A stretch of DNA of 64,000 nucleotides from an uncultured Prevotellaceae bacterium. Lineage in GTDB: Bacteria; Bacteroidota; Bacteroidia; Bacteroidales; Muribaculaceae. The stretch lies in the NCBI GenBank assembly GCA_947165675.1, contig CAMVBJ010000006.1, positions 1 to 64,000 on the forward strand, read 5' to 3'. The position numbers and the translations under genes were made by a program. Shown one piece after another: positions 46 to 34,815 of the stretch. The notes under the pieces are model-generated. The model did no database searches. It was not told the origin of the DNA and worked only from the letters and a program-made list of their open reading frames with translations. How positions within the stretch are numbered: position 1 is the first letter of the stretch; each line of letters opens with the position of its first letter.

Positions 46-201
46 TCACGCAAAGGCGCGAAGCCGCTAAGTTTTTTATATTCAGTATGATAAGATGTTG
101 AGTTTTACAGTTTTCAGCGGCATCCGCTTTCTGACGACTGACAACTAAAAACTGACAACTAACAACTAAATAAAAATCAATAACTTAGTGGCTTGGCGTG
201 A
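46..201. repeat. Imperfect inverted repeat around a heptamer array
   Basis: The arm at 61-73 (AAGCCGCTAAGTT) pairs with 182-194 (AACTTAGTGGCTT) with a single G-T mismatch. The outer blocks TCACGC (46-51) and GCGTGA (196-201) extend the pairing. The loop is filled by the 7-bp repeat array at 100-170. Apart from this structure and the terminator at 255-291, I see no gene in the first 318 bases. Confidence 0.6.
100..170. repeat. Heptamer repeat array (TCAGTTG family) with a palindromic 20-mer
   Basis: Degenerate 7-bp units (GACAACT, AAAACTG) run through this stretch. Positions 108-127 are the exact reverse complement of the 20-mer GCGGATGCCGCTGAAAACTG, which is also found at 27882, 27923 and 32243. 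The array is non-coding and lies downstream of the mmd operon terminator. Confidence 0.7.
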
Positions 202-318: not shown

Positions 319-1473
319 TTATCCCAGGAAGCCCAGCAGGACACCAGCAGCAACTGCCGAGCCAATCACGCCGGCCACATTGGGACCCATGGCGTGCATG
401 AGCAGGTAGTTGCTGGGGTCGGCCTTGAGACCCTGGTCGTTGCTGATGCGGGCAGCCATAGGCACAGCCGACACACCGGCGTTTCCGATGAGCGGGTTCA
501 ACTTCTTGCTCTTGGGCAAGATGAGGTTGAAAATCTTGACAAACAGCACACCCGAGCAAGTGGCGATGACAAAGGCACAGAAGCCCAGGAAGAAGATAAA
601 GATGGTCTCCTTGGTCAAGAACTGTGAAGCCTGGGTCGAGGCACCCACGGTCATGCCCAGCAGGATGGTCACGATGTCGGTCATCGCATTGCTGGCGGTG
701 TTGGCAAGACGCTTGGTCACGCCACTCTCACGCAGCAGGTTACCGAAGAACAGCATTCCCAGCAGGGGAATAGCCGAGGGCACGACAAAGCAGGTGAGAA
801 TCAAACCGAAGATCGGGAAGAGGATCTTCTCGCCCTGGCTCACCTTGCGAGCAGGCTTCATGCGCATCTTGCGCTCTTTCTCGGTCGTGAGCAAGCGCAT
901 GATGGGAGGCTGGATCACGGGCACGAGTGCCATGTAGCTGTAAGCACTCACGGCGATAGCACCCATCAGGTTAGGAGCTAACTTAGACGACAGGAAGATG
1001 GCGGTGGGGCCATCAGCACCACCGATGATGGCGATGGCACCAGCCTGGTCGGGCATGAAGCCCAGAGCCAGTGCAATCATGTAAGCACCGAAGATACCGA
1101 ACTGGGCAGCCGCACCGACAAGCATCAGCTTGGGGTTGGCAATCAGGGCGCTGAAGTCGGTCATCGCACCGATGCCCAGGAAGATGAGGGGCGGATACCA
1201 TCCGTTGCGCACACCTTGATACAAGATGTTCAACACCGATCCTTCCTCATAGATGCCGATCTCGTTGCCCGGCTGGAACGGAATGTTGCCAATGAGGATA
1301 CCGAAGCCGATGGGCACGAGCAGCATGGGCTCGAAATCATGCTTGATGGCGAGGTAGATGAAGAACAACCCCACCATAATCATGATCAGGTTAGTGTAGT
1401 CAAAGTTGTAGAATCCGGTAAAGTGCCAGAAGTCCAGCAACTTGGTGAACAGGAAATTGTCAAGCAGTATCAT
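319..1473 (-). CDS. mmdB: Methylmalonyl-CoA decarboxylase beta subunit (Na+-translocating decarboxylase, OadB/MmdB/GcdB family)
   Basis: This is the membrane subunit that decarboxylates carboxybiotin and pumps Na+ out of the cell. The 384-residue protein is strongly hydrophobic with about 9-11 membrane segments, close to the usual family length. Diagnostic motifs are GAMTDFSALIANP from residue 102, GGADGPT at 151-157 (Asp154 matches the Asp of OadB that is essential for Na+ coupling) and GNAGVSAVPMAAR near residue 330. The start is ATG. It is the last gene of the mce-mmdA-oadG-mmdC-mmdB operon, with a hairpin terminator directly behind it. A 120-bp repeat array separates it from mmdC. Substrate is assigned from the neighbours (mmdA and the epimerase); the beta subunit alone does not tell methylmalonyl-CoA from oxaloacetate or glutaconyl-CoA. 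Confidence 0.93.
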   Translation of the reverse strand: MILLDNFLFTKLLDFWHFTGFYNFDYTNLIMIMVGLFFIYLAIKHDFEPMLLVPIGFGILIGNIPFQPGNEIGIYEEGSVLNILYQGVRNGWYPPLIFLGIGAMTDFSALIANPKLMLVGAAAQFGIFGAYMIALALGFMPDQAGAIAIIGGADGPTAIFLSSKLAPNLMGAIAVSAYSYMALVPVIQPPIMRLLTTEKERKMRMKPARKVSQGEKILFPIFGLILTCFVVPSAIPLLGMLFFGNLLRESGVTKRLANTASNAMTDIVTILLGMTVGASTQASQFLTKETIFIFFLGFCAFVIATCSGVLFVKIFNLILPKSKKLNPLIGNAGVSAVPMAARISNDQGLKADPSNYLLMHAMGPNVAGVIGSAVAAGVLLGFLG

Positions 1474-1476
1474 AGC

Positions 1477-1590
1477 TTTTTAGTTTTCAGCTATCAGTTT
1501 TCAGTTGTCAGTTGCCAGTTGTTAGTTGTCAGTCGTCAGAGAAAACTGTAAAACTAAAACTGTAAAAACTAAAACTAAAAACTGAAGACT
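1477..1590. repeat. Heptamer repeat array inside the mmd operon
   Basis: Tandem degenerate 7-bp units of the types TCAGTTG, TCAGTTT and TTAGTTG are followed by AAAACTG/AAAACTA units. The array fills the mmdC-mmdB gap, so it is transcribed with the operon if the operon is continuous. The units are imperfect and the block has no open frame. Confidence 0.75.
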
Positions 1591-23696: not shown

Positions 23697-23735
23697 TGTC
23701 TTCGGTTTTTATTTTTATTAAATTGTCTTGAATTT

Positions 23736-23775
23736 TTTTATTTTTTCCATTTTTTCCACGCACGCGTGTGACTCT
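23736..23775. repeat. CCATTTTTTCCACG repeat copy
   Basis: TTTTTTCCATTTTTTCCACG followed by CACGCGTGTG belongs to the same 9-bp-period family as the copies at 28031, 28650 and 34634. It lies in the spacer upstream of the small lipoprotein gene. Confidence 0.6.
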
Positions 23776-24977: not shown

Positions 24978-25108
24978 TTTTTGAGTTTTCAGTTTTCAGT
25001 TTTTAGTCGCTAGTCTCTTGTCGCTAGTCACTAGCCGTTAGTTTTTTAGTCGTTAGTCATCAGCTATAGACTAGTGACTAGTGACTTCTTGACTAGTGAC
25101 TCACAACT
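24978..25108. repeat. Heptamer repeat array between rlmI and rseP
   Basis: Units change along the array. TCAGTTT comes first (24984-25005), then TAGTCGC/TAGTCAC units, and then ACTAGTG/ACTTGTG-like units that read out as CTAGTGACTAGTGAC (25070-25085). The period is 7 with drift, and there is no ORF. Confidence 0.75.
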
Positions 25109-25111
25109 GAA

Positions 25112-26548
25112 TTACTTAATTACAAATCTGAAGATATCGTTGCCAATAGCCAGAACCATCAGGGCAATGACGAAAGCCATACCAATTTTCATCGATACCT
25201 CCTGAAATTTCTCGCTGGGCTGGCGACCAGTGATCATCTCATAGAGCAGGAACAGCACGTGGCCTCCGTCCAGAATGGGAATGGGCAACACGTTCATCAC
25301 TGCCAGGATGATAGAGATAAATGCTGTCACATTCCAGAAGTTGAGCCAATCCCAAGTGGGCGGGAAGATGCTGCCGATGGCACCGAAGCTGCCCACACTC
25401 TTGACTCCCTGGGGTGTGAAGATGAGCTTGAGTTGCTTCACATAGTTCACCATCTTGTCCCATCCCATCTGGATACCGCGGGGAATGGACTGCAACAGGT
25501 TGTAGTGGATGACGGTGGTCTTGAATATCTTAATGGGTTCGGTGAGCAGGATGCCGATGTGGCCTTCACTGTCAACCACGACGTTGCTTGCCGTCATGAC
25601 CTTGCCGTCACGCTGGTAGTCCAGGGTAATGGCCTTGCCCTTGTTCTTGGCCAGCTCGGCTGTGAACTCGGTGTAATCGGGAGTGGGCACGCCGTTGACA
25701 GCCACCATGCGGTCTCCGTCCTTGAGGCCAGCCTTCTCGCCACCCTGGTTAAGCAGAGTCTGGGCAACAACAACCGGCCAGCGGTATTCCATGAAAGTGC
25801 CACCGTTCTTTGCTTCATTATCGACCTGGAAGATGAAATCCTTGGGCAGATTGATCTTGACGGTGTCCTGATGATTGCGCAGCACGGTCACCTGCTTGGC
25901 GGTCAAGATGGCTTGCAAGTCCTCGGGGTTCATCGTGAGCAGCTCATGGCCATCGGCAGTCAAGGGAATATCGCCATTCTGGAAGCCTGCCTTATGTGCC
26001 GCCTCGCAATAGTTCATACCCTCGGTCGCATCGGTAAACTTGACGTACTGTTCGCCCTGGCTATAGACGATACCCGAGTAGATGATGATGGCCAGCAGGA
26101 AGTTGAAGAGCACACCTCCCAGCATGATCAGCAGGCGCTGCCATGCAGCCTTGCTGCGGAATTCCCACGGTTTGGCGGGCTTCTTCATGGCCTCGGTGTT
26201 CATCGACTCGTCGATCATGCCCGCGATAGAGCAGTAACCGCCCAGGGGGATCCAGCCGATGCCATACTCGGTGGCACGCCATGTGTTCTTGTTCTCGCCC
26301 TGGTCATTGTTCTCCATGACGGCCATTTCCTCACCAGTGGAGAACCACTTGAGGTATTTGCCAGGTTTCCACTTGACAAGGGTGAACTTGTAGTTGAAGA
26401 ACATATAGAATTTCTCTACCCACACGCCGAAGAGCCGTGCAAACGAGTAGTGTCCAAATTCATGAAATGCGACCAGAATGCTGAGCGATAAGATCAGTTC
26501 CAGTGTTTTGATCCAGAAGGATGAGGTCAAGAAAAAAGAAAAGTCCAT
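25112..26548 (-). CDS. rseP: Site-2 protease RseP (membrane zinc metalloprotease)
   Basis: RseP cuts anti-sigma factors and leftover signal peptides within the inner membrane. The zinc motif HEFGH is at about residue 27 (LVAFHEFGHYSFARLFGV). Two PDZ-like domains lie at roughly residues 190-330 (GFQNGDIPLTADGHELL and GGEKAGLKDGDRMVAVNGVP). The third zinc ligand is in NVLPIPILDGGHVLF near residue 425. The 478-residue length is slightly above the E. coli enzyme owing to a loop with EEMAVMENNDQGENKN after the first helix. It sits immediately downstream of dxr, a pairing common in Bacteroidota, but a repeat array separates them here. Confidence 0.95.
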   Translation of the reverse strand: MDFSFFLTSSFWIKTLELILSLSILVAFHEFGHYSFARLFGVWVEKFYMFFNYKFTLVKWKPGKYLKWFSTGEEMAVMENNDQGENKNTWRATEYGIGWIPLGGYCSIAGMIDESMNTEAMKKPAKPWEFRSKAAWQRLLIMLGGVLFNFLLAIIIYSGIVYSQGEQYVKFTDATEGMNYCEAAHKAGFQNGDIPLTADGHELLTMNPEDLQAILTAKQVTVLRNHQDTVKINLPKDFIFQVDNEAKNGGTFMEYRWPVVVAQTLLNQGGEKAGLKDGDRMVAVNGVPTPDYTEFTAELAKNKGKAITLDYQRDGKVMTASNVVVDSEGHIGILLTEPIKIFKTTVIHYNLLQSIPRGIQMGWDKMVNYVKQLKLIFTPQGVKSVGSFGAIGSIFPPTWDWLNFWNVTAFISIILAVMNVLPIPILDGGHVLFLLYEMITGRQPSEKFQEVSMKIGMAFVIALMVLAIGNDIFRFVIK

Positions 26549-26553
26549 TTATG

Positions 26554-26668
26554 TTTCAGTTGTTTTTTAGTTGTCAGTTTATTTCAGTTTTCAGTTTTCA
26601 GTTGTCAGCTAATGCCTATAACCTATAACCTATAGCCTACAACCTATAGCCTACAACCTAAAGCCTAA
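26554..26668. repeat. Two adjoining heptamer arrays (TCAGTTT and CCTATAG types)
   Basis: Positions 26554-26608 hold TCAGTTT/TCAGTTG units. Positions 26613-26668 hold about seven CCTATAA, CCTATAG and CCTACAA units. The second array runs into the 3' end of dxr and provides the last codons and the TAG stop of that gene. Confidence 0.8.
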
Positions 26669-27827
26669 CCAGGCTTCTCGCATAATCACGTGCCGCGGCG
26701 TTGCTTGCCACATAGTCATCATAGCTCGGGCGCTCGACATGAGGCTCGTGCTCCATCGTCTGCTCGATGATGCGATAGATGTCGATAAATCCGATTTCAT
26801 TCTGCAAGAATGATGCCACGGCAATCTCGTTGGCGGCATTCATGACACATGGCGCAGTGCCACCCTTGCTTGCAGCGGCATAGGCCGTCCTCAGCAGCGG
26901 GAATTTGTCAAAGTCGGGACGCTCGAGTGTTAGGGTGGCCATGTCCTCGATGGTCATCTTGCGGCAGTCGCTGGCCAGTCGCTGGTCGGGCAGTCCCAGG
27001 GCATAACGGATGGGCAGATGCATGTCGGGCAATCCCAACTGGGCCTTGATGGAGCCGTCCTTGAAGGCTACCATCGAGTGGATGATGCTCTGTGGGTGCA
27101 CGACAATCTCGATGTCCTGTGGCTCGATGCCGAATAGCCAGCGCGCCTCGATCATCTCAAAGCCCTTGTTCATCATCGTTGCCGAGTCGATGGTGATCTT
27201 GGCACCCATCGACCAGTTGGGATGCTTCAGGGCATCGGCGGCGGTGACAGTGGCGAGCTGTTGCTTGGGCACCGTGCGGAAAGGTCCACCCGAGGCCGTC
27301 AGCAGCAACCGCTCCACGTCCTGCATCCGTTCGCCCACCAGGCACTGGTAGAAGGCGCCATGCTCGCTGTCCACGGGATAGAGCACACTGGTGGAGTCTT
27401 GCAGCAGGCGGTTGATCAGTTCACCAGCCACCACCAGAGTCTCCTTGTTGGCCAGGGCAATGCGCTTGCCCGCCTGGATAGCGGCGATGGTCGATTCCAG
27501 ACCGCTATAGCCCACCATGGCGGTGACCACGGTGTCGATCTCGGGGGCGGTAACGGCCGTGGCAATGGCTGCACTGCCAGTGGCCACCTCGATGGAGGTG
27601 TCACCGAGGGCGTCGCGCACATACTCGTAGTACCGTTCGTCGGCAATGATGACCATGTGGGGACGATACTGACGGGCTTGCTGGATGAGCAGGTCGGCAC
27701 TGCTGCGGGCTACCAGCAGCCAGGCTTGGAACAATCCAGGGTATTCGGCAATGATGTCGAGCGTCTGCCGCCCGATTGACCCGGTGCTGCCCAGCACCGC
27801 TATATTGCGCTTGTTATCTTGTGTCAT
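26658..27827 (-). CDS. dxr: 1-deoxy-D-xylulose-5-phosphate reductoisomerase
   Basis: This is the second step of the MEP isoprenoid pathway, turning DXP into MEP with NADPH. The 389-residue protein has the NADPH motif GSTGSIGRQTLDII near residue 13, ALANKETLVVAGELI, the metal/substrate region PVDSEHGAFYQCL, and LLTASGGPFR. KITIDSATMMNKGFEMIEARWLF and HPQSIIHSMVAF follow. Length is normal for the family. The final residues (VRL-stop) are read from a CCTATAG-type repeat, so the natural C-terminus may have been reshaped by the array. The start is ATG 27827. rseP follows downstream. Confidence 0.96.
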   Translation of the reverse strand: MTQDNKRNIAVLGSTGSIGRQTLDIIAEYPGLFQAWLLVARSSADLLIQQARQYRPHMVIIADERYYEYVRDALGDTSIEVATGSAAIATAVTAPEIDTVVTAMVGYSGLESTIAAIQAGKRIALANKETLVVAGELINRLLQDSTSVLYPVDSEHGAFYQCLVGERMQDVERLLLTASGGPFRTVPKQQLATVTAADALKHPNWSMGAKITIDSATMMNKGFEMIEARWLFGIEPQDIEIVVHPQSIIHSMVAFKDGSIKAQLGLPDMHLPIRYALGLPDQRLASDCRKMTIEDMATLTLERPDFDKFPLLRTAYAAASKGGTAPCVMNAANEIAVASFLQNEIGFIDIYRIIEQTMEHEPHVERPSYDDYVASNAAARDYARSLVRL

Positions 27828-27837
27828 TATTTCTATT

Positions 27838-27966
27838 TCAGTCGTCAGTTGTCAGTTTTTAGTTGTCAGTTGTCAGTGAATGCGGATGCCGCTGAAAACT
27901 GAAAACTAATATTTCAGTGAATGCGGATGCCGCTGAAAACTGAAAACTGTAAAACTGAAAACTAAT
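27838..27966. repeat. Heptamer array with two copies of the palindromic 20-mer
   Basis: The 20-mer GCGGATGCCGCTGAAAACTG is found exactly at 27882-27901 and 27923-27942, each preceded by TCAGTGAAT and followed by AAAACT units. The core GCGG-ATG-CCGC is a mini-hairpin. TCAGTTG units flank it on the left. Confidence 0.8.
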
Positions 27967-28030
27967 CAGTTATTCCTTTACAACTTGCGAAGATACTGCA
28001 AATTTCCTACATGACAATACCTCAATTCTA

Positions 28031-28160
28031 TTTTTCCATTTTTTCTATTTTTTCTATGAGTACACGCATATTAGGCTATAGGTTTTAGGCTATAGGCTAT
28101 AGGCAATAGCTGAAAACTGAAAACTTGAAAACTGAAAACTAACAACTATAGCCTATAGCC
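28031..28160. repeat. Mixed array: CCATTTTTT, 20-bp direct repeat, AGGCTAT heptamers
   Basis: In order, this holds TTTTTCCATTTTTTCTATTT, then the direct repeat GAGTACACGCATATTAGGCT (28058-28077), then AGGCTATAGG-type heptamers, AAAACTG heptamers (28112-28137) and again CTATAGCCTATAG up to 28160. It is the left border of the segment with decayed small genes. Confidence 0.75.
28058..28077 (+). repeat. 20-bp direct repeat, left copy
   Basis: GAGTACACGCATATTAGGCT is identical to 28668-28687, about 610 bases away. The pair brackets the small-ORF remnants. Confidence 0.8.
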
Positions 28161-28415
28161 TTGCAGTCGTTGGATGTCACGGGGCGTGTAGGGTGCCGTT
28201 GACTTCAAGGCGATTTCCCTGACGATAAACAATGCCTCGGCACGGTTCACGAGATACTGCTGGTGCTCGCTGTGTTCGGCATAATAGCGACCGTTGGGCA
28301 ACAGGGTCATGTGGGCAATCGCCCCGAGCTGGCTCACCGTCATGCCACAGCAAGCCGAGCAGATGAAGAAGCAAGGCGACCAGCAACAGCTCGTCACCAC
28401 CATGTAGCGGGTCAT
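28146..28415 (-). CDS. Possible small protein ending in a repeat array (uncertain)
   Basis: An 89-codon frame begins with a hydrophobic, Cys-rich stretch (VVTSCCWSPCFFICSACCG) and continues with MTVSQLGAIAHMTLLPNG and a polar C-terminal half (YYAEHSEHQQYLVNRAEALFIVREIALKS). The last four residues and the stop come from a CCTATAG array, just as in dxr. It overlaps the plus-strand remnant at 28342-28602 over about 70 bases, so at most one of them is likely to be real in the shared part. The family is not recognised. A longer start at 28493 is possible. Confidence 0.3.
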   Translation of the reverse strand: MTRYMVVTSCCWSPCFFICSACCGMTVSQLGAIAHMTLLPNGRYYAEHSEHQQYLVNRAEALFIVREIALKSTAPYTPRDIQRLQGYRL

Positions 28416-28602
28416 GGAGAATGGGGAACGGGAATCCAAGCGCAAGGACATCGTGAAGTCAATAACAGAGCTTGGCATGTGCAAGATAGCCAAGGCCTAT
28501 CAGTTCGTCAACGAAGCCATCGAGCAGAATATTCTCGAGAGCGAGAACGGTGTCACTTATCGCTTGTCGCCACAGTATTGCGACAGCAATACTCCTTTAT
28601 AA
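28342..28602 (+). pseudogene. Small gene remnant interrupted by an in-frame TAG
   Basis: From ATG 28342 the frame reads a Gln/Lys-rich helical stretch (MPQQAEQMKKQGDQQQLVTT, then M), hits TAG at 28405-28407, and continues in the same frame. The continuation is RVMENGERESKRKDIVKS, followed by ITELGMCKIAKAYQFVNEAI and EQNILESENGVTYRLSPQY, up to the TAA at 28602. Both halves look like one polar helical protein of about 86 residues. Alternatively the second half alone (ATG 28414, 62 codons) is a small gene. I do not recognise the family. The segment lies between two identical 20-bp direct repeats. Confidence 0.4.
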
Positions 28603-28612
28603 TATATTTGAT

Positions 28613-28855
28613 AGAAAAAATAGAAAAAATAGAAAATAGAAAATTCCAAAAATTCCATTTTTTCCACGAGTACACGCATATTAGGCTTTAGTCACCAGTC
28701 AAGAAGTCAATAGTCAAAAAGTCACTAGTCAAGAAGTCACTAGTCACTAGTCTATAGCTGACGACTGACGACTGACGACTGACGACTGACGACTAGTGAC
28801 TAGCGACTAATGACTAACAACTGACAACTGAAAAACTGAAAACTCTAAACTGCGA
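28613..28855. repeat. Long mixed repeat array downstream of the tricorn-like gene
   Basis: From left to right: GAAAAAATA units (28610-28640), CCATTTTTTCCACG, the 20-bp direct repeat at 28668-28687, AAGTCAC/CTAGTCA heptamers (28690-28752), five almost perfect TGACGAC units (about 28758-28793), then CTAGTGA and AACTGAC/AAAACTG units. No ORF is present. Confidence 0.85.
28668..28687 (+). repeat. 20-bp direct repeat, right copy
   Basis: GAGTACACGCATATTAGGCT is identical to 28058-28077 and lies in the same CCATTTTTT context. Confidence 0.8.
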
Positions 28856-28867
28856 GCGAAGCGGGAA

Positions 28868-31800
28868 TCAATCTACTCCCAAGTCGTGAAGGGTGCGCGG
28901 TGCCGGGGCCTTAGGCATGGGCTTGCGGTCCTTGAGCTGGTCGAGGATGACCTCGATGGCCTTGTCGAGCTGCTGGTCGATGCCGTTGAACTCCTGCACG
29001 GGATCGTTGTCGATAACGATGTCGGGATCCACGCCGTGGTTCTCAACAATCCAGTTGCCACGGGTGTCATAGTTGGTGAAGAAGGGCACGCGGATGTCGG
29101 TGCCGTCCATGTAGGGCAGCGAGCCACTGATGCCCACGATGCCACCCCACGAGCGGGTACCGATCACGGGACCAATCTTGTTCTCCTTGAAGCTCCAGGG
29201 GAACAGGTCGCCGTCACTGGCGCTGTACTTGTTGACGAGCAGCACCTTGGGACCGACGACGGTGCGCTCAGGCACGGTGCCGTTGTAGTTGCTGCCACGG
29301 TACATGGTCAACCGGTAGGGCTGGCGCAACAGGCGCTCAATCACCATGGGAGAGATGTTACCGCCACCGTTGCCACGGTCGTCAATGATGAGAGCTTCCT
29401 TATCAGTCTGAGCAAAGAAGTAGCGTGAGAACTCACGCAAGCCCTCGGGACCCATGTCGGGAATATAGACGTAGCCCACACGGCCACCGGTCTTCTCGCT
29501 CACGTAGTCGATATTGTGCTGTACCCACTCGTAATGGTACAGGGGATACTCGTCCTGGATGGGCTTGACGACAACCTTGCGGCCATCGTTCAGGGTCAGT
29601 TCGGTCATCACGTCGGCCTTGTCGCGCAACAGCGTATAGATGTTGGCCACGCCCTGGGTCGTCACACCATCGATAGCGGTGATCACGTCACCCTCCTTAA
29701 CGTTCATGCCAGGTTCCAGCAACGGCGAGCGCAACGACTCGCGGTCGGGAGCGCCACGCAGGATCTTCTTGATACGGTAACCACTTGCAACCGGTTCCAG
29801 CTCGGCACCGAGCATACCGATGTTGTGCTCATCGACGGTGATGTGGTCACCACCGTCAACGTAGGCGTGACCCACGGCCAGTTCACCGATCATGCCACCG
29901 ATGACGTAGGTCAAGTCCAGACGGTTCTTGACGTAGGGCAGCAGGGCGGCATACTTGTCGTGCATCGCCTGCCAATCGACGCCATGCATGTTCTCGAGGT
30001 AGAAGCCGTCACGATAGGCACGCCATGCCTCGTTAAAGATCTGGTTCCACTCCTGGTCATAGTTGACTGTGGTAATCATATCATCGAGATTGACCTTATC
30101 GTTGAGTTCAGCTTTGCGGGGTTGAATGGGTGCGACATAGAGGTCATCACCCTTGATGAAGGCGGCCATCTTCTTGTCGGCCGAGGGAATCATGAAGGCT
30201 CGCTCAGCAACGAGTTCATCCTTCTGCTCCTCAAAGTCAAACACGCGCACACTGCCTCGACCACTATACCACAGATGGCTGCCGTCACACACGAAGTTGC
30301 CATAGCTGCCTGTACCGACGGGCACCTTGACGATGCGGTCGGCGATGCCGTCGATGTCGATGCGGATGGCGCCAGCATCGGCTTGGGCTTTGCCGCCCTT
30401 ACCAGCCTTCTTGTCCTTGGGCGCATCCTTGGAGGTCTCTTTGCCACCGTTCATGTTCACCTGGTCATCCTTGGGCAAGAAGGGCGATGGGGTGTCCTTG
30501 GAGAGCATGACAAGGTAGATGCCTTCCATATCGCGGTAAGCAAAGTTCCACTCGATACTGCTGTAAATGGGATTGAAGTCACGTGCCGAGGCAAAAATCA
30601 AGTACTTGCCGTCGGTGCTGAACTCGGGTGAGTTGCTATCATACCACTGGTCGGTCACGGGGTACTCCTTGCGCTCAGCGATGTTGTACAGGTAAACCAC
30701 TCCATACTCGTTGGCTCCCTGGCGATAATAAGTGAGCCACTTGCCGTCCGGCGAGAAGCTGGGCATGGGAATCTCGCCCATCTCGTCCTGCAAGAGGGTC
30801 TGCTTGACCATGGTCTTGACATTGAGAAGGATCATGCGGTTCTTGCGATCGGTATAGACAATCTGGCTGCCGTCAGGACTCCATTGCAGATCTCGGATGT
30901 AGGTGTCATTGTCCTTGGTGAGCTGGATGGCCTTGTCGCTACCGACGGGACGCATCCAGATTTCGGTCTCACCAGTCTGATCGCTGATGTAAGCGATATT
31001 CTTGCCGTCGGGGCTCCAGCTGGCGTTGCGCTCATGCACACCGGGCGTGTGGGTCAAGTTGCGGGTGACGCCGTGCTTGGCAGGCACATCAAAGACCTCG
31101 CCACGGGCGCTCAGAGCCAATCGACTGCCATCGGGAGCCAAGCTGCCACCGGTCAGATTGTCCTTGACCTTGCGCTGCTCCTCGCGGGCAAAGTTGTTCT
31201 CGCTGTTGAGATAGACAGTGATTTTTTCACTACGCTTGGTAGCGGGGTCGAGCTTGTAGAGGTAGCCACCGTTCTCAAACACGATCTTGCCTCCGCCACA
31301 GCTGGCAAACTTCACGTCATATTCGGTGAAATCGGTGACCTTCTGGATCGATCCGCTCTGGGTGTTATAGACAAAGATGTTCATGCGATTGTCACGATCG
31401 CTCATGAAGTAGATCTCGTCGCCAATCCACATGGGATCAATGTCCTGGGCAATGTTGTTGGTGATGTTCTTGACGGTCTTGGCCTGAGTATCATAGATCC
31501 AGATGTCGTCGGCCATTCCGCCCTTGTAATATTTCCATGTGCGGAATTCACGGAAGACACGGTTATAGGCCATCTTGGTGCCATCGGCATTATAGGAGCA
31601 GAAACCGCCCTCGGGCAAGGGTAACTGCTGGGGCATGCTGCCATCGAGGGGAGCACACCACAGTTTACCGTCAAAGCTGTCACTGATGCGGTTGCGGTAG
31701 ATGACGCCCTTGCCATCGGGGGTCCAGGTCATCGTGATGTTGTTGGGACCCATGCGGTCGCCCCAATCGTCACGGGGATTGGTCGCGGTGAAGGTGATGC

Positions 31801-32098
31801 GACGGGGTTCTCCACCAGTAGCGGGCATCACATACACCTCGGTATTACCGTCGTACTGGCCTGTGAAGGCGATGGTCTGTCCGTCGGGAGAAAAACGGGC
31901 AAAGGCTTCATAACCTTTGTGTGATGTGAGTTTACGCGCCGTGCCACCAGTGATGGGCACCGTGTAGATGTCACCAGCATAGCTGAATGCCACCTCACTA
32001 CCATTGGTGCCAGGGAAGCGCAGCAGGCGTCCCTCGTCGGCTTGACTGGTCAATGCCGTTGCAGCCAGGGCTGCAATCAAGATAAGTTTTGACTTCAT
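28868..32098 (-). CDS. Secreted tricorn-like protease (S41 family) with beta-propellers
   Basis: The 1076-residue protein has a signal peptide (MKSKLILIAALAATALTSQA). Two sets of beta-propeller PD40-type repeats follow, with RFSPDGQTIAFTGQYDGNTEVYV, ASWSPDGKNIAYISDQTGETEIWM and LQWSPDGSQIVYTDRKN. A C1-like region and a PDZ domain (MNVKEGDVITAIDGVTTQGVANIYTLL) lead into the S41 catalytic core. The core has GNGGGN near residue 912 and the nucleophile region YSASDGD near 958. A Lys/Gly/Ala-rich linker at about residues 555-575 separates the propellers. Archaeal tricorn is cytosolic, but the signal peptide here predicts periplasmic peptide degradation. The start is ATG 32098. Confidence 0.92.
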   Translation of the reverse strand: MKSKLILIAALAATALTSQADEGRLLRFPGTNGSEVAFSYAGDIYTVPITGGTARKLTSHKGYEAFARFSPDGQTIAFTGQYDGNTEVYVMPATGGEPRRITFTATNPRDDWGDRMGPNNITMTWTPDGKGVIYRNRISDSFDGKLWCAPLDGSMPQQLPLPEGGFCSYNADGTKMAYNRVFREFRTWKYYKGGMADDIWIYDTQAKTVKNITNNIAQDIDPMWIGDEIYFMSDRDNRMNIFVYNTQSGSIQKVTDFTEYDVKFASCGGGKIVFENGGYLYKLDPATKRSEKITVYLNSENNFAREEQRKVKDNLTGGSLAPDGSRLALSARGEVFDVPAKHGVTRNLTHTPGVHERNASWSPDGKNIAYISDQTGETEIWMRPVGSDKAIQLTKDNDTYIRDLQWSPDGSQIVYTDRKNRMILLNVKTMVKQTLLQDEMGEIPMPSFSPDGKWLTYYRQGANEYGVVYLYNIAERKEYPVTDQWYDSNSPEFSTDGKYLIFASARDFNPIYSSIEWNFAYRDMEGIYLVMLSKDTPSPFLPKDDQVNMNGGKETSKDAPKDKKAGKGGKAQADAGAIRIDIDGIADRIVKVPVGTGSYGNFVCDGSHLWYSGRGSVRVFDFEEQKDELVAERAFMIPSADKKMAAFIKGDDLYVAPIQPRKAELNDKVNLDDMITTVNYDQEWNQIFNEAWRAYRDGFYLENMHGVDWQAMHDKYAALLPYVKNRLDLTYVIGGMIGELAVGHAYVDGGDHITVDEHNIGMLGAELEPVASGYRIKKILRGAPDRESLRSPLLEPGMNVKEGDVITAIDGVTTQGVANIYTLLRDKADVMTELTLNDGRKVVVKPIQDEYPLYHYEWVQHNIDYVSEKTGGRVGYVYIPDMGPEGLREFSRYFFAQTDKEALIIDDRGNGGGNISPMVIERLLRQPYRLTMYRGSNYNGTVPERTVVGPKVLLVNKYSASDGDLFPWSFKENKIGPVIGTRSWGGIVGISGSLPYMDGTDIRVPFFTNYDTRGNWIVENHGVDPDIVIDNDPVQEFNGIDQQLDKAIEVILDQLKDRKPMPKAPAPRTLHDLGVD

Positions 32099-32164
32099 AA
32101 TTACTAAATGATGATATAATATTAATAATTGTTTTTAGTTGAATGTATTAATTATTTAAGTTTC

Positions 32165-32181
32165 GCAAGTTGTTAACTTGC
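32165..32181. promoter_or_regulatory. Operator-like inverted repeat upstream of the tricorn-like gene
   Basis: GCAAGTT-GTT-AACTTGC is a perfect 7-3-7 inverted repeat, 67-83 bases upstream of the start codon. This is a size typical of dimeric regulator sites. No regulator gene is nearby. Confidence 0.4.
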
Positions 32182-32205
32182 TCACTGCATAATGGTTAAA
32201 GAAAA

Positions 32206-32285
32206 CAGTTGTCAGTAGTTGTCAGTTGTCAGTCGTCAGAATGCGGATGCCGCTGAAAACTGAAAACTTGAGAACTGAAAACTAA
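32206..32285. repeat. Heptamer array with the palindromic 20-mer
   Basis: TCAGTAG/TCAGTTG/TCAGTCG units are followed by GCGGATGCCGCTGAAAACTG at 32243-32262 and AAAACT units. The rest of the 341-base spacer (32099-32439) holds TTAACC/GGTTAA-rich sequence (32286-32390) and the hairpin at 32390-32427. Confidence 0.8.
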
Positions 32286-32389
32286 AGTTAAGGGTTAATG
32301 TTTAATGAAAAACACCTTCCATTTTCAGGAAACATTTATAAATCACATTTTGGCAAATTCTTTAACCATTAACCTTTATCCTTTAACCT

Positions 32390-32427
32390 CAAGTTTTTAA
32401 AGTGGTTCAGCCACTTTAGAAACTTGA
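32390..32427 (-). terminator. Terminator-like hairpin after the glycosidase gene
   Basis: CAAGTTT...AAAGTGG pairs with CCACTTT...AAACTTG around the loop TTCAG (about 16 pairs with two mismatched positions). It begins 13 bases past the stop at 32440. Both arms are A/T-rich on the outside. Confidence 0.6.
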
Positions 32428-32439
32428 ATGAATTACTAA

Positions 32440-34599
32440 CTAACGCCTGATGAGCCTCACATGAATCGGTTCACAAGGCGTGAAAGACTTGGGCAGACGA
32501 ACCTGATCGATCTCGATGATGTTTTCACCCTTGAGCAGCTTGACGGTCAAGATATTGCTGTAAGCCAGTCCGTTATCCTCGATGCCCACCACACGGGTCA
32601 TCACTATGGTGCCCATGGGATGAGTGTTGGCGCTAACACGGCGCACGTCGAGGGTTCCCGTGGGATTGTAGCCAATATCCAGCAGATAATCTCCACCCTG
32701 AGCCACACTCATCGATATCGTCGTGTGACCATCAACACCCTCGTGGAAAAATGCGACTTGAGGTGTCAAACCCTTGTGCAGATAGGGCTTGGACATGAAT
32801 CCGCTCGTGTTTTTGCCTGCAATCTCGACCGAGAATTCGGCAGTCCCGTCAGGCAGGGGCAATGCAAATACAGAGTCGTTGATACTTGACAGCTCACCAT
32901 TGCAGGACAGCCGATAAGGCGTGCCAGGCACATAGCCCACAATGTGACCGCTGTCAGCCGTCCAAGTCACAGTCGGGGTGGGGGGGAGAATGATATCGCC
33001 ATGATGGATGGTCACGTTCTGTGACGGTCTTGTTCCCTGCTTGAGGGTGATAACAATGTGATGATGACCCTCGATGTCCTTGGGGATGAATGCGCTCTCC
33101 AGCACAGTGCCATTATCGGTGATGGATTCCACGTCATTGCCGGTCCCCTTGATGGTGACATCAATCAGTGCCCGCCGATAGTTCAAGCCGGTAAAAGATT
33201 TCTTGCCAGGCATGCAAGTGGGTACGTTGGGAGAGAACTCGATGCCTTCAGGGGTGAAGTTCATCCCGATGAACACTCTCAGGACCATGGCAGCGCTGGA
33301 TGCGCAGGTGCCCAGGTGGTCTGTTTCCACACCGTCCATGTGGATGTCTCGGGACTGATACAGTGCCTGTGCCCGATACAGGGCACCCAGACCACGACGC
33401 AGGGCATTCTCGTTACCGACCCATGCGGCAGCCAAGTTCCACAGCGCCTGGGTCGTCGCCCACGACGAGTTGGCAAAGAAAGGCTCAATCGGGTTTCCGG
33501 CAGGGTAGGATATATTAACGCCCTGATTGGAAACTGGAGTGTGAGCTATGAGGTTCTCAGCACGGTTGTCATCGGCAATACCCCACAACACACACATGGC
33601 CTGGGCGGTATTGTCGGTCAATGGAGACTGGCGAGGGTAGGCCATTCCATAGAGGAAAGAACTGTAAAACCCCTTGTCCTCGTTCCAGAGATGCTGATTG
33701 ATGGCATCCTTGATGCGCTGTGCATCTTTCTGGTATTCATTCTCAATGCCTAACTCATCACACATTTCGGCCAGGATGGAGTAGGCATTTCCTGTCAAGA
33801 TATTGTTGCCCAGCGACATGCAGGCAAACAAGTCGTTATATCCCATCCAAGTCATTCGGCGCACACCGATGGGCCTTGACGAGGTGTAGCCGGCACCGTG
33901 TATCAATCCTGTCTCATGGTCGAGCAGCACATTGCGGTTGATGTTGAGCGTCTTCTCGATCACACGCCGGCAATAAGAGAGCCACTTGCGGTCACCCGTT
34001 GTCTTGTAAACCTCCCAAGCAGCCGTGGCCCATCCGATGTGATCGCTCACCACGGGCCACTGCCCCTCTCGCTGCATGATGATACTGTCCTTATCGACAA
34101 TCGAGCGCAGGGTCTCCATGGACTGGTGGGGCTTGAGTGCAGCCAGTGACAGAAAGATGGAACAGTACAGGCGGCTGTAATTCTTCTGAGTCGGAGCAAA
34201 ATGTCCTGTATTGTCAACCGCTTGGGCAATGCGATCGATTGACATGACATATAGCGCATCAATCAAGGGCTGATCGCTGTTGTACTCGGGCATCATCACG
34301 GGATGTTTGGCCCTTGGACGCCAACGACGGCCCTCAACAAACCGCAATCGGCCTGAATCAACTTGGCTATATAGGCTATCGAGCCGAGTGGTTGTGATAT
34401 TAGATTGGATGAGGCCTGAAGGCAGCGCACAAGCATAGATGGTATCCTCGATGATGCTGTCACTCGTCATTGTGAAGATCTCATTCTGGACGATGACCTG
34501 ATTGCTCATCTCGATGTGCCCATCACAGGCACACAAAATCACGCTTACGGCAAGTGCCGCAAGCATCCAGACAATGCTCTGCGTCCTATATCTGTTCAT
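32440..34599 (-). CDS. Lipoprotein with an (alpha/alpha)6 glycoside hydrolase domain (MGH1-like)
   Basis: This is a 719-residue surface or periplasmic lipoprotein (lipobox ILCAC within the first 25 residues). Residues about 100-480 form a helical toroid typical of (alpha/alpha)6 glycosidases, with WPVVSDHIGWATAAWEVYKTTGDRKWLSYC, ETGLIHGAGYTSSRPIGVRRMTWMGYNDLFA, NQHLWNEDKGFYSSFLY and FFANSSWATTQALWNLAAAW. The C-terminal third is beta-rich. The closest resemblance is to MGH1-like/GH63-like enzymes, but I cannot name the catalytic pair or the sugar. The start ATG 34599 lies 6 bases after a TACCTTTG box, which suggests a leaderless mRNA. It is followed by a hairpin. Confidence 0.75.
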   Translation of the reverse strand: MNRYRTQSIVWMLAALAVSVILCACDGHIEMSNQVIVQNEIFTMTSDSIIEDTIYACALPSGLIQSNITTTRLDSLYSQVDSGRLRFVEGRRWRPRAKHPVMMPEYNSDQPLIDALYVMSIDRIAQAVDNTGHFAPTQKNYSRLYCSIFLSLAALKPHQSMETLRSIVDKDSIIMQREGQWPVVSDHIGWATAAWEVYKTTGDRKWLSYCRRVIEKTLNINRNVLLDHETGLIHGAGYTSSRPIGVRRMTWMGYNDLFACMSLGNNILTGNAYSILAEMCDELGIENEYQKDAQRIKDAINQHLWNEDKGFYSSFLYGMAYPRQSPLTDNTAQAMCVLWGIADDNRAENLIAHTPVSNQGVNISYPAGNPIEPFFANSSWATTQALWNLAAAWVGNENALRRGLGALYRAQALYQSRDIHMDGVETDHLGTCASSAAMVLRVFIGMNFTPEGIEFSPNVPTCMPGKKSFTGLNYRRALIDVTIKGTGNDVESITDNGTVLESAFIPKDIEGHHHIVITLKQGTRPSQNVTIHHGDIILPPTPTVTWTADSGHIVGYVPGTPYRLSCNGELSSINDSVFALPLPDGTAEFSVEIAGKNTSGFMSKPYLHKGLTPQVAFFHEGVDGHTTISMSVAQGGDYLLDIGYNPTGTLDVRRVSANTHPMGTIVMTRVVGIEDNGLAYSNILTVKLLKGENIIEIDQVRLPKSFTPCEPIHVRLIRR

Positions 34600-34605
34600 C
34601 TACCG

Positions 34606-34613
34606 CAAAGGTA
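34606..34613 (-). promoter_or_regulatory. -7 promoter element immediately before the glycosidase start codon
   Basis: TACCTTTG on the minus strand is separated from the ATG by only CGGTAG. Transcription would start at or within 1-2 bases of the ATG. Confidence 0.55.
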
Positions 34614-34633
34614 CAAGAATTTTTACATTTAAT

Positions 34634-34808
34634 AATGAACACACGCGTGGAAAAAATGGAAAAAATGGAAAAATGGAAAAAAAACAACTGTGGGTAACAT
34701 CCACGACAGGAATGAAACCCACAGTTAGTTGTCAGTTTTCAGTTGTCAGTTGTCAGTCGTCAGTTGTTAACTATTGACTATTGACTAGTGACTTTTTGAC
34801 TATTGACT
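34634..34808. repeat. Mixed array: CCATTTTTT type plus heptamers
   Basis: CACACGCGTGG and three GGAAAAAAT units (34640-34680) are the reverse complement of the copies at 23736 and 28650. TCAGTTT/TCAGTTG/TCAGTCG heptamers follow (34729-34768), then CTATTGA and CTAGTGA units up to the nfnB stop. A GTGGGT...ACCCAC inverted repeat (34690-34725) sits between the two families. Confidence 0.75.
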
Positions 34809-34815
34809 AAAATCA

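Follow-up and report, generated by a model that had tools for sequence, protein, structure and literature searches.

The first 64,000 nucleotides of contig CAMVBJ010000006.1 (hereafter the window; the start of contig C6 in a 3.12-Mb genome of 73 contigs from an uncultured rumen bacterium of the Bacteroidota) contain gene spacers filled with degenerate tandem repeats of 7 bp. What are these arrays, what sets their arrangement, and what might they mean for the genes on either side? Intergenic heptamer repeats are known in several bacterial groups and have no agreed explanation. We find that the arrays are bipolar, running from a left arm in one orientation (F) to a right arm in the other (R), and that this polar F–R order is a rule of the arrays across scattered members of the Bacteroidota. 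It is also the main regularity missing from a preliminary description of this DNA.

F units have an in-phase YAG core (TTGTCAG, TTTTCAG, TTTAGGC, AGTCACT) and form the left arm, R units have an in-phase CTR core (CTGACAA, CTGAAAA, CCTAAAG, AGTGACT) and form the right arm, and the two cores are reverse complements of each other. The unit families TAGG, TAGA, TAGT and CAGT are all repeated. A spaced pattern for the CAGTT family alone, scored as overlapping matches rather than distinct loci, as in all our pattern counts, finds F-then-R order 239 times in 16 of 61 genomes of the genus (backward control, 1) and R-then-F order 0 times in the same 61 genomes (control, 1). Across the phylum, F-then-R order has 101 matches in 27 of 395 genomes from 13 genera, 81 of them outside the genome studied here (backward control, 10), against 3 matches for R-then-F in the 395 genomes (control, 2); these exceptions comprise one within a gene, one in a terminator-like hairpin (L172) and one in a spacer. 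The backward control of one pattern scan was unclean, the reversed pattern being itself a heptamer array that matched about 20 genomes. Among called arms with neighbours within 60 bp in four genomes, 44 pairs are FR, 4 are RR, 1 is FF and none is RF. Arms of undecided orientation are excluded from these four-genome counts and were dropped from the counts of order, side and family (34 of 168 arms in this genome and G009 together).

In many elements of the genus the two arms are separated by a GC-rich hinge, which is often GCGGCATCCGC or a form of it that shares the 4-bp stem; loop and stem vary, and the form GCGGnnnCCGC is kept in many cases. The exact hinge occurs 19 times in this genome (reversed control, 1), and in G009 a second hinge, GGCGATAGTAATC[TG]TACT, recurs. 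The two arms of an element often differ in family, as in a left arm of TATAGGC with a right arm of CTGAAAA. We also observed a recurrent GC-rich hairpin, TGCGAGC..GCTCGCA, that borders GTTTAGA-type arms in several species (L014, L016 and spacer 16 of G488). In another genus (G266, G117, G314, G349, G337, G298 and G262) units alternate between 7 and 6 bases, CAGTTTT with CAGTCT, CAGTCG or CAGTCA (loci L173–L192, L203 and L204), and the F-to-R order is kept; these elements were picked by the F–R pattern, and the R–F pattern gave none in the same genomes.

The underlying periodicity is robust. Tandem Repeats Finder (TRF) reports period-7 rows at 143, 1482, 24979, 25004, 25069, 26582, 26615, 27838, 27933, 28072, 28110, 28758, 32217, 32253, 32360, 34727 and 34770, among others. 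Identity at lag 7 in the spacers of 1–1.6 kb and 23.7–34.8 kb is 0.475, against 0.275 in shuffles (standard deviation 0.009), with echoes at lags 14 and 21, so the related, degenerate 7-bp families of the preliminary description are real; the value is 0.286 in the spacers past 34.8 kb (shuffles, 0.281) and 0.242 in coding DNA. The period-7 scan proposed there, run over 464 kb made up of the window and 20 further 20-kb stretches of the genome, returns 50 strong segments. All 50 midpoints are intergenic, which bears out the remark that the arrays avoid reading frames, and the shuffled sample, run for periods 7 and 9, gives 0 segments. Other periods yield none (5, 6, 10 and 13), one each (11 and 12), five (8) or six (9). 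At a lower threshold, 40 of the 259 spacers of at least 20 bp hold a period-7 segment, comprising 30 of 169 co-directional, 7 of 48 divergent and 3 of 42 convergent spacers; the gene maps used are longest-ATG open reading frames (ORFs) with a minimum of 80 or 100 amino acids, in which some starts are wrong. G009, the richest of 81 genomes, has 58 period-7 segments in 400 kb, 3 of them with a coding midpoint, and arrays in 51 of 209 spacers.

The arrays are neither confined to one locus nor products of faulty assembly, the two findings that the preliminary description had named as fatal to its account. One heptamer pattern has 100 overlapping matches genome-wide, and arrays or F–R elements are also present in other genera, in genomes assembled into what is nearly a single contig (G298, 5.51-Mb contig; G262, 4.84 Mb; G157, 3.49 Mb), which argues against an assembly artefact. 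The clustering described earlier holds for the window, where six consecutive spacers contain arrays and no signal is seen past 34.8 kb, but not as a general property: with the window left out, the genome sample has 5 adjacent array spacers where 4.6 are expected, and 10 against 6.0 when the window is included (P 0.051).

What could hold the arms in this order? Inverting an F–R element restores an F–R element, so descent from F–R ancestors suffices for the polarity. Base pairing cannot cause it, because R–F arrays are equally self-complementary. The point bears on the possibility that the arrays act as an RNA hairpin element, the F and R arms pairing in the transcript to protect the upstream mRNA end or insulate cistrons in the manner of repetitive extragenic palindromes (REP) and bacterial interspersed mosaic elements (BIME). 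The inverted grammar and the partly conserved hinge form speak for such an element, as does the folding of F–R seeds relative to mononucleotide shuffles (median z −5.9 to −8.0). Judged by dinucleotide shuffles, however, the folding of F–R elements is not stronger than that of array-free spacers (p 0.41 in this genome and 0.08 in G009). Nor does an arm pair better with its own partner than with a swapped one: the mean rank is 0.44 (p 0.45) in this genome and 0.61 (p 0.09) in G009, each for 18 elements, taking the first F–R pair per spacer and at most 60 array-free controls per genome. A second swap test with equal seeds, using one element per seed pair and requiring 40 nt of flank, gives 0.41 for the genus (15 elements), 0.45 for g42 (22), 0.39 for g92 (10) and 0.59 for the others (8), none of them significant. 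We consider a hairpin function unlikely, and a conserved giant hairpin finds no support in the two swap tests. The lack of an own-partner advantage, together with the frequent family mismatch, indicates that the arms behave as independent modules. A known structured RNA was also rejected, as Rfam 15 gives 0 window matches above gathering score.

Elements recur at distant sites in the genome. Among the matches listed, window 24984–25101 matches L094:9169 over 118 bp at 93%, 27845–27907 matches L097:18111 over 63 bp at 98.4%, and 28720–28780, which spans the F arm into the R arm, matches L093:12627 over 61 bp at 96.7%; the listed copy pairs as a whole share array cores of 40–118 bp with no common fixed end. 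Matches fall on both the plus and the minus strand, and the copies include the interruptions of the arrays, showing that they are not independent slippage products.

At orthologous positions, elements are lost, gained and replaced. The sister species G487 and G488 (fourfold-site identity 0.827) share 66 orthologous spacers, of which 10 have arrays and 56 do not. Length is kept in 2 of the 10 array spacers (aligned identity 0.911) and in 30 of the 56 array-free spacers (0.887). In spacer 18 each species has an F–R element entirely unlike that of the other, in spacer 25 the R family differs, and in spacer 16 G488 has about 230 bp inserted at the hinge where G487 has the hinge only. Spacer 17 (L150–L157 in G488 versus L143–L149 in G487) shows a separate kind of change, a palindrome of 160 bp with GTGTGTCATAATT..AATTATAACACAC ends, inserted in one sister only; similar sequence lies near the end of the spacer L128:15378–15852. 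Over a wider range of genomes, the junction between the M50 protease (rseP) and methyltransferase genes has an array in 18 of 32 related loci and a 4-bp gene overlap in 12, with states labelled by hand, L010 and L036 in neither class, and at least 2 of the 18 array rows (L020 and L026) without a period-7 segment. At least 8 changes between array and overlap are needed on the 32-genome tree, 4 of them forced by well-supported branches.

These comparisons bear on ordinary replication slippage, with polarity arising from local selection for T-rich sequence after stops and A-rich sequence before starts. Slippage typically makes tandem heptads, the excess of heptamers in bacteria has been attributed to it (PMC4679880), and aligned gaps inside arms of spacers 24 and 81 are 7 and 14 long. 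As an ongoing process, however, which the preliminary description had listed among its possible roles, slippage finds no support: of 119 orthologous pairs (from 32 loci, both members with arrays and unequal in length), 16 differ in length by a multiple of 7, which is the chance rate, as do 63 of 578 pairs with arrays in neither. Slippage alone would give neither the head-to-head polarity nor dispersed copies with common interruptions. Replacement and larger changes dominate at the distances compared, and stepwise slippage was not seen.

The polarity and the independence of the arms could also reflect directed end extension, in which a telomerase-like or otherwise templated activity adds F heptamers to the 3′ ends of an intergenic break that are then joined as (F)n(R)m, a product that would resemble a fused telomere. 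Frequent family mismatch between arms and the repeated appearance of arrays at the same junction would fit this scheme. The hinges, however, are recurrent sequences and not random joints, long near-identical copies at distant sites require copying rather than new synthesis, and a search confined to Y1 transposases offered no candidate enzyme. We regard end extension as very improbable.

The arms are not placed evenly between genes. In co-directional spacers of the four genomes, 55 of 59 F arms have the upstream stop codon within 25 nt and 6 of 59 have a start codon that close, and the downstream start lies no more than 25 nt from 49 of 70 R arms. A start lies at most 40 nt from 52 R arms, and 42 of these end no more than 8 nt from it. 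Single arms behave similarly: 17 of 20 F arms sit nearer the stop, and 22 of 30 R arms nearer the start. This bias is largely the same fact as F-left/R-right, because the two coincide in every gene arrangement. It also shows that the arrays are not specific mRNA 3′-end elements, as had been suggested, since start codons are abutted by arms as much as stop codons. A difference in unit family between the two sides is not implied by the left–right order: TAGG/TAGA arms outnumber TAGT/CAGT arms by 34 to 24 on the stop side and are outnumbered 8 to 61 on the start side (Fisher 1.8e-8). In elements of mixed class the ACTG-type arm is the one at the start by 13 to 1 (p 0.0018), and the arm facing the start is preferentially of the A-rich ACTGAAA/ACTAAAA type. 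The last 30 nt before the start have an A content of 0.52 with an abutting R arm (n=43) and 0.39 in array-free spacers (n=280). Upstream of single R arms, F words outnumber R words by 26 to 6, as expected of decayed F–R copies.

Local composition does not seem to account for this arrangement. Ahead of starts, co-directional spacers without arrays are rich in A (A 0.37, T 0.31), in keeping with selection acting on slippage products, but they show no T excess after stops (0.30/0.30). Array-free convergent spacers begin A-rich and end T-rich (A 0.36 on the left, T 0.36 on the right; n=71) in the manner of terminators; arrays in convergent spacers run from T-rich to A-rich (n=12). Arrays there thus run opposite to array-free DNA, and the polarity looks to be borne by the element. 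With the chance-level length differences and the shared interruptions of distant copies, this makes slippage under local selection an unlikely source of the arrays, at about the same standing as the hairpin. The arrays also lack the A-rich-then-T-rich order of an intrinsic terminator. One further proposal is that R–F elements would terminate transcription and have been removed from operons; the match within a terminator-like hairpin among the three R–F exceptions agrees with it. Convergent spacers, where terminators would be welcome, nevertheless keep the F-to-R order (F in the left half in 6 of 8, R in the right half in 8 of 10), and we find terminator avoidance highly unlikely.

Of the R arms, 54 of 70 have a stop codon in every sense frame, as have 37 of 59 F arms; for all antisense frames the counts are 41 of 59 F arms and 26 of 70 R arms. 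A stop-codon array as the sole reason for the repeats was rejected: the counts are suggestive, but stops leave the period of 7 alone unexplained. The A-rich composition of the R arm would fit a role as translation leader. Bacteroidetes start translation without Shine–Dalgarno pairing, and in Flavobacterium johnsoniae adenines at −3, −6, −12 and −13 together with weak structure help translation (PMC6847099); a study of Prevotella bryantii reports that unstructured leaders matter (PMC3155529). A site for a ribosome or protein at fixed distance was rejected, as the CTR-to-start distance is spread out.

We tentatively favour, at a probability a little short of even, the reading that these arrays are dispersed intergenic F–R heptad repeats, polar by descent, copied between sites, and with an A-rich arm that is tolerated or favoured as a leader. 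Their grammar is the same on both strands: an F arm of YAG heptads, an optional GC-rich mini-hairpin hinge and an R arm of CTR heptads. Polarity would be kept simply by descent from F–R ancestors. Copies would overwrite or seed each other through template switching or gene conversion between elements, a step that we infer only from the copies and replacements. Selection would keep the elements between genes, and the A-rich, stop-rich R arm would be tolerated or favoured upstream of starts because Bacteroidota initiate without Shine–Dalgarno on A-rich, weakly structured leaders.

Several observations weigh against the reading of a dispersed repeat that is polar by descent. Descent must span the whole phylum, within which the unit grammar varies from clade to clade (one genus has 6/7-mers). 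We found no insertion ends, no duplicated target, no empty site and no enzyme acting in trans, the enzyme search being for Y1 transposases only, and no empty site was recovered in the 66 orthologous spacers of G487/G488. The number of Y1 transposases shows no significant correlation with array counts (Spearman 0.19, p 0.19, 49 genomes), and Y1_Tnp counts do not separate 11 array-rich from 22 array-free genomes (p 0.51); repeats and Y1/RAYT genes need not co-occur, according to the pertinent part of PMC3733652, which weakens the comparison. Stepwise heptamer change is unseen in the 119 orthologous pairs, with multiples of 7 at chance, and accounts for 0 of 8 array-spacer length differences between G487 and G488. 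On the side of gene position, 14 of 70 R arms lie within 25 nt of a stop, and the words that follow single F arms are R and F in equal number (11:11), so that decay explains one side only. The distance from the last CTR to the start is spread out and not sharply phased, which makes the leader role compositional only. Finally, orthologous spacers of G487/G488 are partly double-counted in the tests of arm position, A content, mixed elements and single arms.

A RAYT/REPIN reading was rejected, as Y1_Tnp counts do not track the arrays. More far-reaching, and in our view improbable, is a Bacteroidota-wide non-autonomous intergenic element with a CAGT/ACTG core, spread by a dedicated activity that recognizes or writes polar heptads and co-opted as exchangeable operon leaders; that activity would be a copying enzyme specific to heptads or else a templated or telomerase-like extension of 3′ ends. 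A strict head-to-head order seen again and again across a phylum strongly constrains any explanation and is not what simple slippage would predict; counts of F–R against R–F order provide a sharp handle on how heptamer repeats arise and spread. If the A-rich arm does serve as a leader, the arrays would naturally supply this phylum, which does without Shine–Dalgarno sequences, with leaders that change quickly.

Table 1 Heptamer elements and 9-mer modules of the window
Coordinates	Feature	Basis
117..169	Hinge GCGGCATCCGC (117–127) and R arm (131–169)	TRF, arm caller, pattern scan
1477..1539	F arm, TCAGTTG type	TRF, arm caller
1563..1590	R arm, ACTAAAA type	TRF, arm caller
24979..25057	F arm (TTTTCAG, TAGTCGC)	TRF, arm caller
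25058..25108	R arm (CTAGTGA)	TRF, arm caller, reading of sequence
26554..26608	F arm (TTTCAGT)	TRF, arm caller
26615..26667	R arm (CCTATAG); final bases overlap called dxr 3′ end	TRF, arm caller
27838..27877	F arm (TCAGTTG), first element of spacer	TRF, arm caller
27882..27933	Two hinge copies (27882–27892, 27923–27933; GCGGATGCCGC) with short CTGAAAA stretch between	
27933..27963	R arm (CTGAAAA)	TRF, arm caller
28072..28110	F arm (TAGGCTA), second element of same spacer	TRF, arm caller
28111..28145	R arm (CTGAAAA)	TRF, arm caller
28689..28757	F arm (AGTCACT, AGTCAAG)	Caller undecided; sequence reads AGTC units
28758..28852	R arm (CTGACGA), longest of the window	TRF, arm caller
32207..32239	F arm (AGTTGTC)	TRF, arm caller
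32243..32253	Hinge GCGGATGCCGC	Pattern scan
32253..32286	R arm (CTGAAAA)	TRF, arm caller
34724..34764	F arm (AGTTGTC)	TRF, arm caller
34765..34809	R arm (ACTATTG)	TRF, arm caller
23732–23775, 28026–28060, 28611–28660, 34634–34690	9-mer module copies	

The elements of the window are listed in Table 1. The first lies on the 3′ side of the OAD_beta gene (319–1473, minus strand), and its left F side is weak (AGTTTTACAGTTTTCAG). The right end of the CTAGTGA arm is placed at 25086 by the arm caller and at 25101 by TRF, and in-phase ACT units continue to 25108. The arm caller leaves the orientation of the CTGAAAA stretch between the paired hinge copies undecided. Genes flanking the arrays are ordinary by Pfam: 1-deoxy-D-xylulose 5-phosphate (DXP) reductoisomerase, M50 protease, S-adenosylmethionine (SAM) methyltransferase and a tricorn-like protease. 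We read a further flanking gene, from its Pfam domains, as a probable glutamate-synthase-like oxidoreductase subunit. The closest named relatives by dxr are uncultured rumen or gut Bacteroidales labelled Muribaculaceae, Prevotellaceae or Porphyromonadaceae; Candidatus Sodaliphilus is more distant (about 72%).

Beside or inside the heptamer elements there is a second module of 9-mer repeats (ATTTTTTCC or GAAAAAATG) with a head of CACGCGTG or GTACACGCAT. The stretches that the preliminary description listed at 28031, 28613 and 34634 are this module rather than heptamers; the spacers it named do contain degenerate period-7 arrays. The arm caller mislabels some 9-mer stretches (for example, 28617–28644 is called F). 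The spacer 16 insert of G488 contains (TTTTGTCCG)n, which is related to the 9-mer module. Positions 32099–32439 form a repeat resembling a miniature inverted-repeat transposable element (MITE), with AAGTTTCTAAAGTGG..CCACTTTAGAAACTT and GCAAGTTAACAACTTGC palindromes and heptamers of its own (AGGATAA and CATTAAC); relatives lie at L093:2337, L098:18840, L106:16002 and L107:7989. In the dxr/tricorn-like spacer, the minus-strand ORF called at 28146–28478 looks spurious and a plus-strand ORF of about 60 amino acids (MENGERESKRKDIVKS...) ends near 28600; to judge from the sequence, the spacer may hold a small gene on the strand opposite to the called ORF.

How do these elements compare with known systems? 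REP and BIME sequences (GTAG- and CGTC-tagged) are likewise dispersed intergenic inverted elements, and REPs are described in the relevant sections of PMC3733652 as tagged, 20–40 bp long and, for the GTAG type, accompanied by a RAYT transposase. Most elements of the window, in contrast, are arrays of at least 50 bp, and array abundance does not track Y1 transposases. The BrickBuilt MITE of Porphyromonas gingivalis, as outlined in PMC4596501, is also a tandem repeat inside a dispersed intergenic element of the Bacteroidales, with leader and tail subunits, small inverted-repeat ends and one 23-bp unit. The present elements differ in having a 7-bp unit, many families and no fixed ends that we found. 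Short tandemly repeated repetitive (STRR) heptamers occur in cyanobacteria. Like them and the GGGAATC-type heptamers of Xanthomonas and Nostoc, the arrays are intergenic and vary in length and sequence between close relatives; the part of PMC4692102 that treats the latter reports no bipolar polarity, and the Xanthomonas units are G-rich and were studied as quadruplex-forming. Among the matches listed in our literature searches, none concerns a bipolar or head-to-head bacterial heptamer element, its hinge, its dispersed copies or phylum-wide counts.

Paludibacter propionicigenes belongs to the Bacteroidales, an order for which the preliminary description knew of no such arrays. A precedent nonetheless exists: MacGregor (2015; PMC4679880) describes TAACTGA direct repeats in marine Beggiatoaceae, Cyanobacteria and five Bacteroidetes including P. 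propionicigenes, and TAACTGA is the reverse complement of TCAGTTA. According to that paper, the Maribeggiatoa repeats lie mostly directly upstream of starts in R orientation, some Bacteroidetes have other heptamer repeats in the same spacers, and close relatives keep the gene neighbours without the arrays. The window's arrays share with these repeats tandem intergenic heptamers with an AACTGA/TCAGTT core, and ACT on the sense strand near the downstream start. Maribeggiatoa, as presented there, has one dominant heptamer whose variants are rarely repeated and one inverted set among 170, whereas here four unit families are all repeated and there are a strict F-to-R order, hinges and dispersed copies. 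On the features given in that account, the present arrays are the same kind of heptamer repeat as those of MacGregor.

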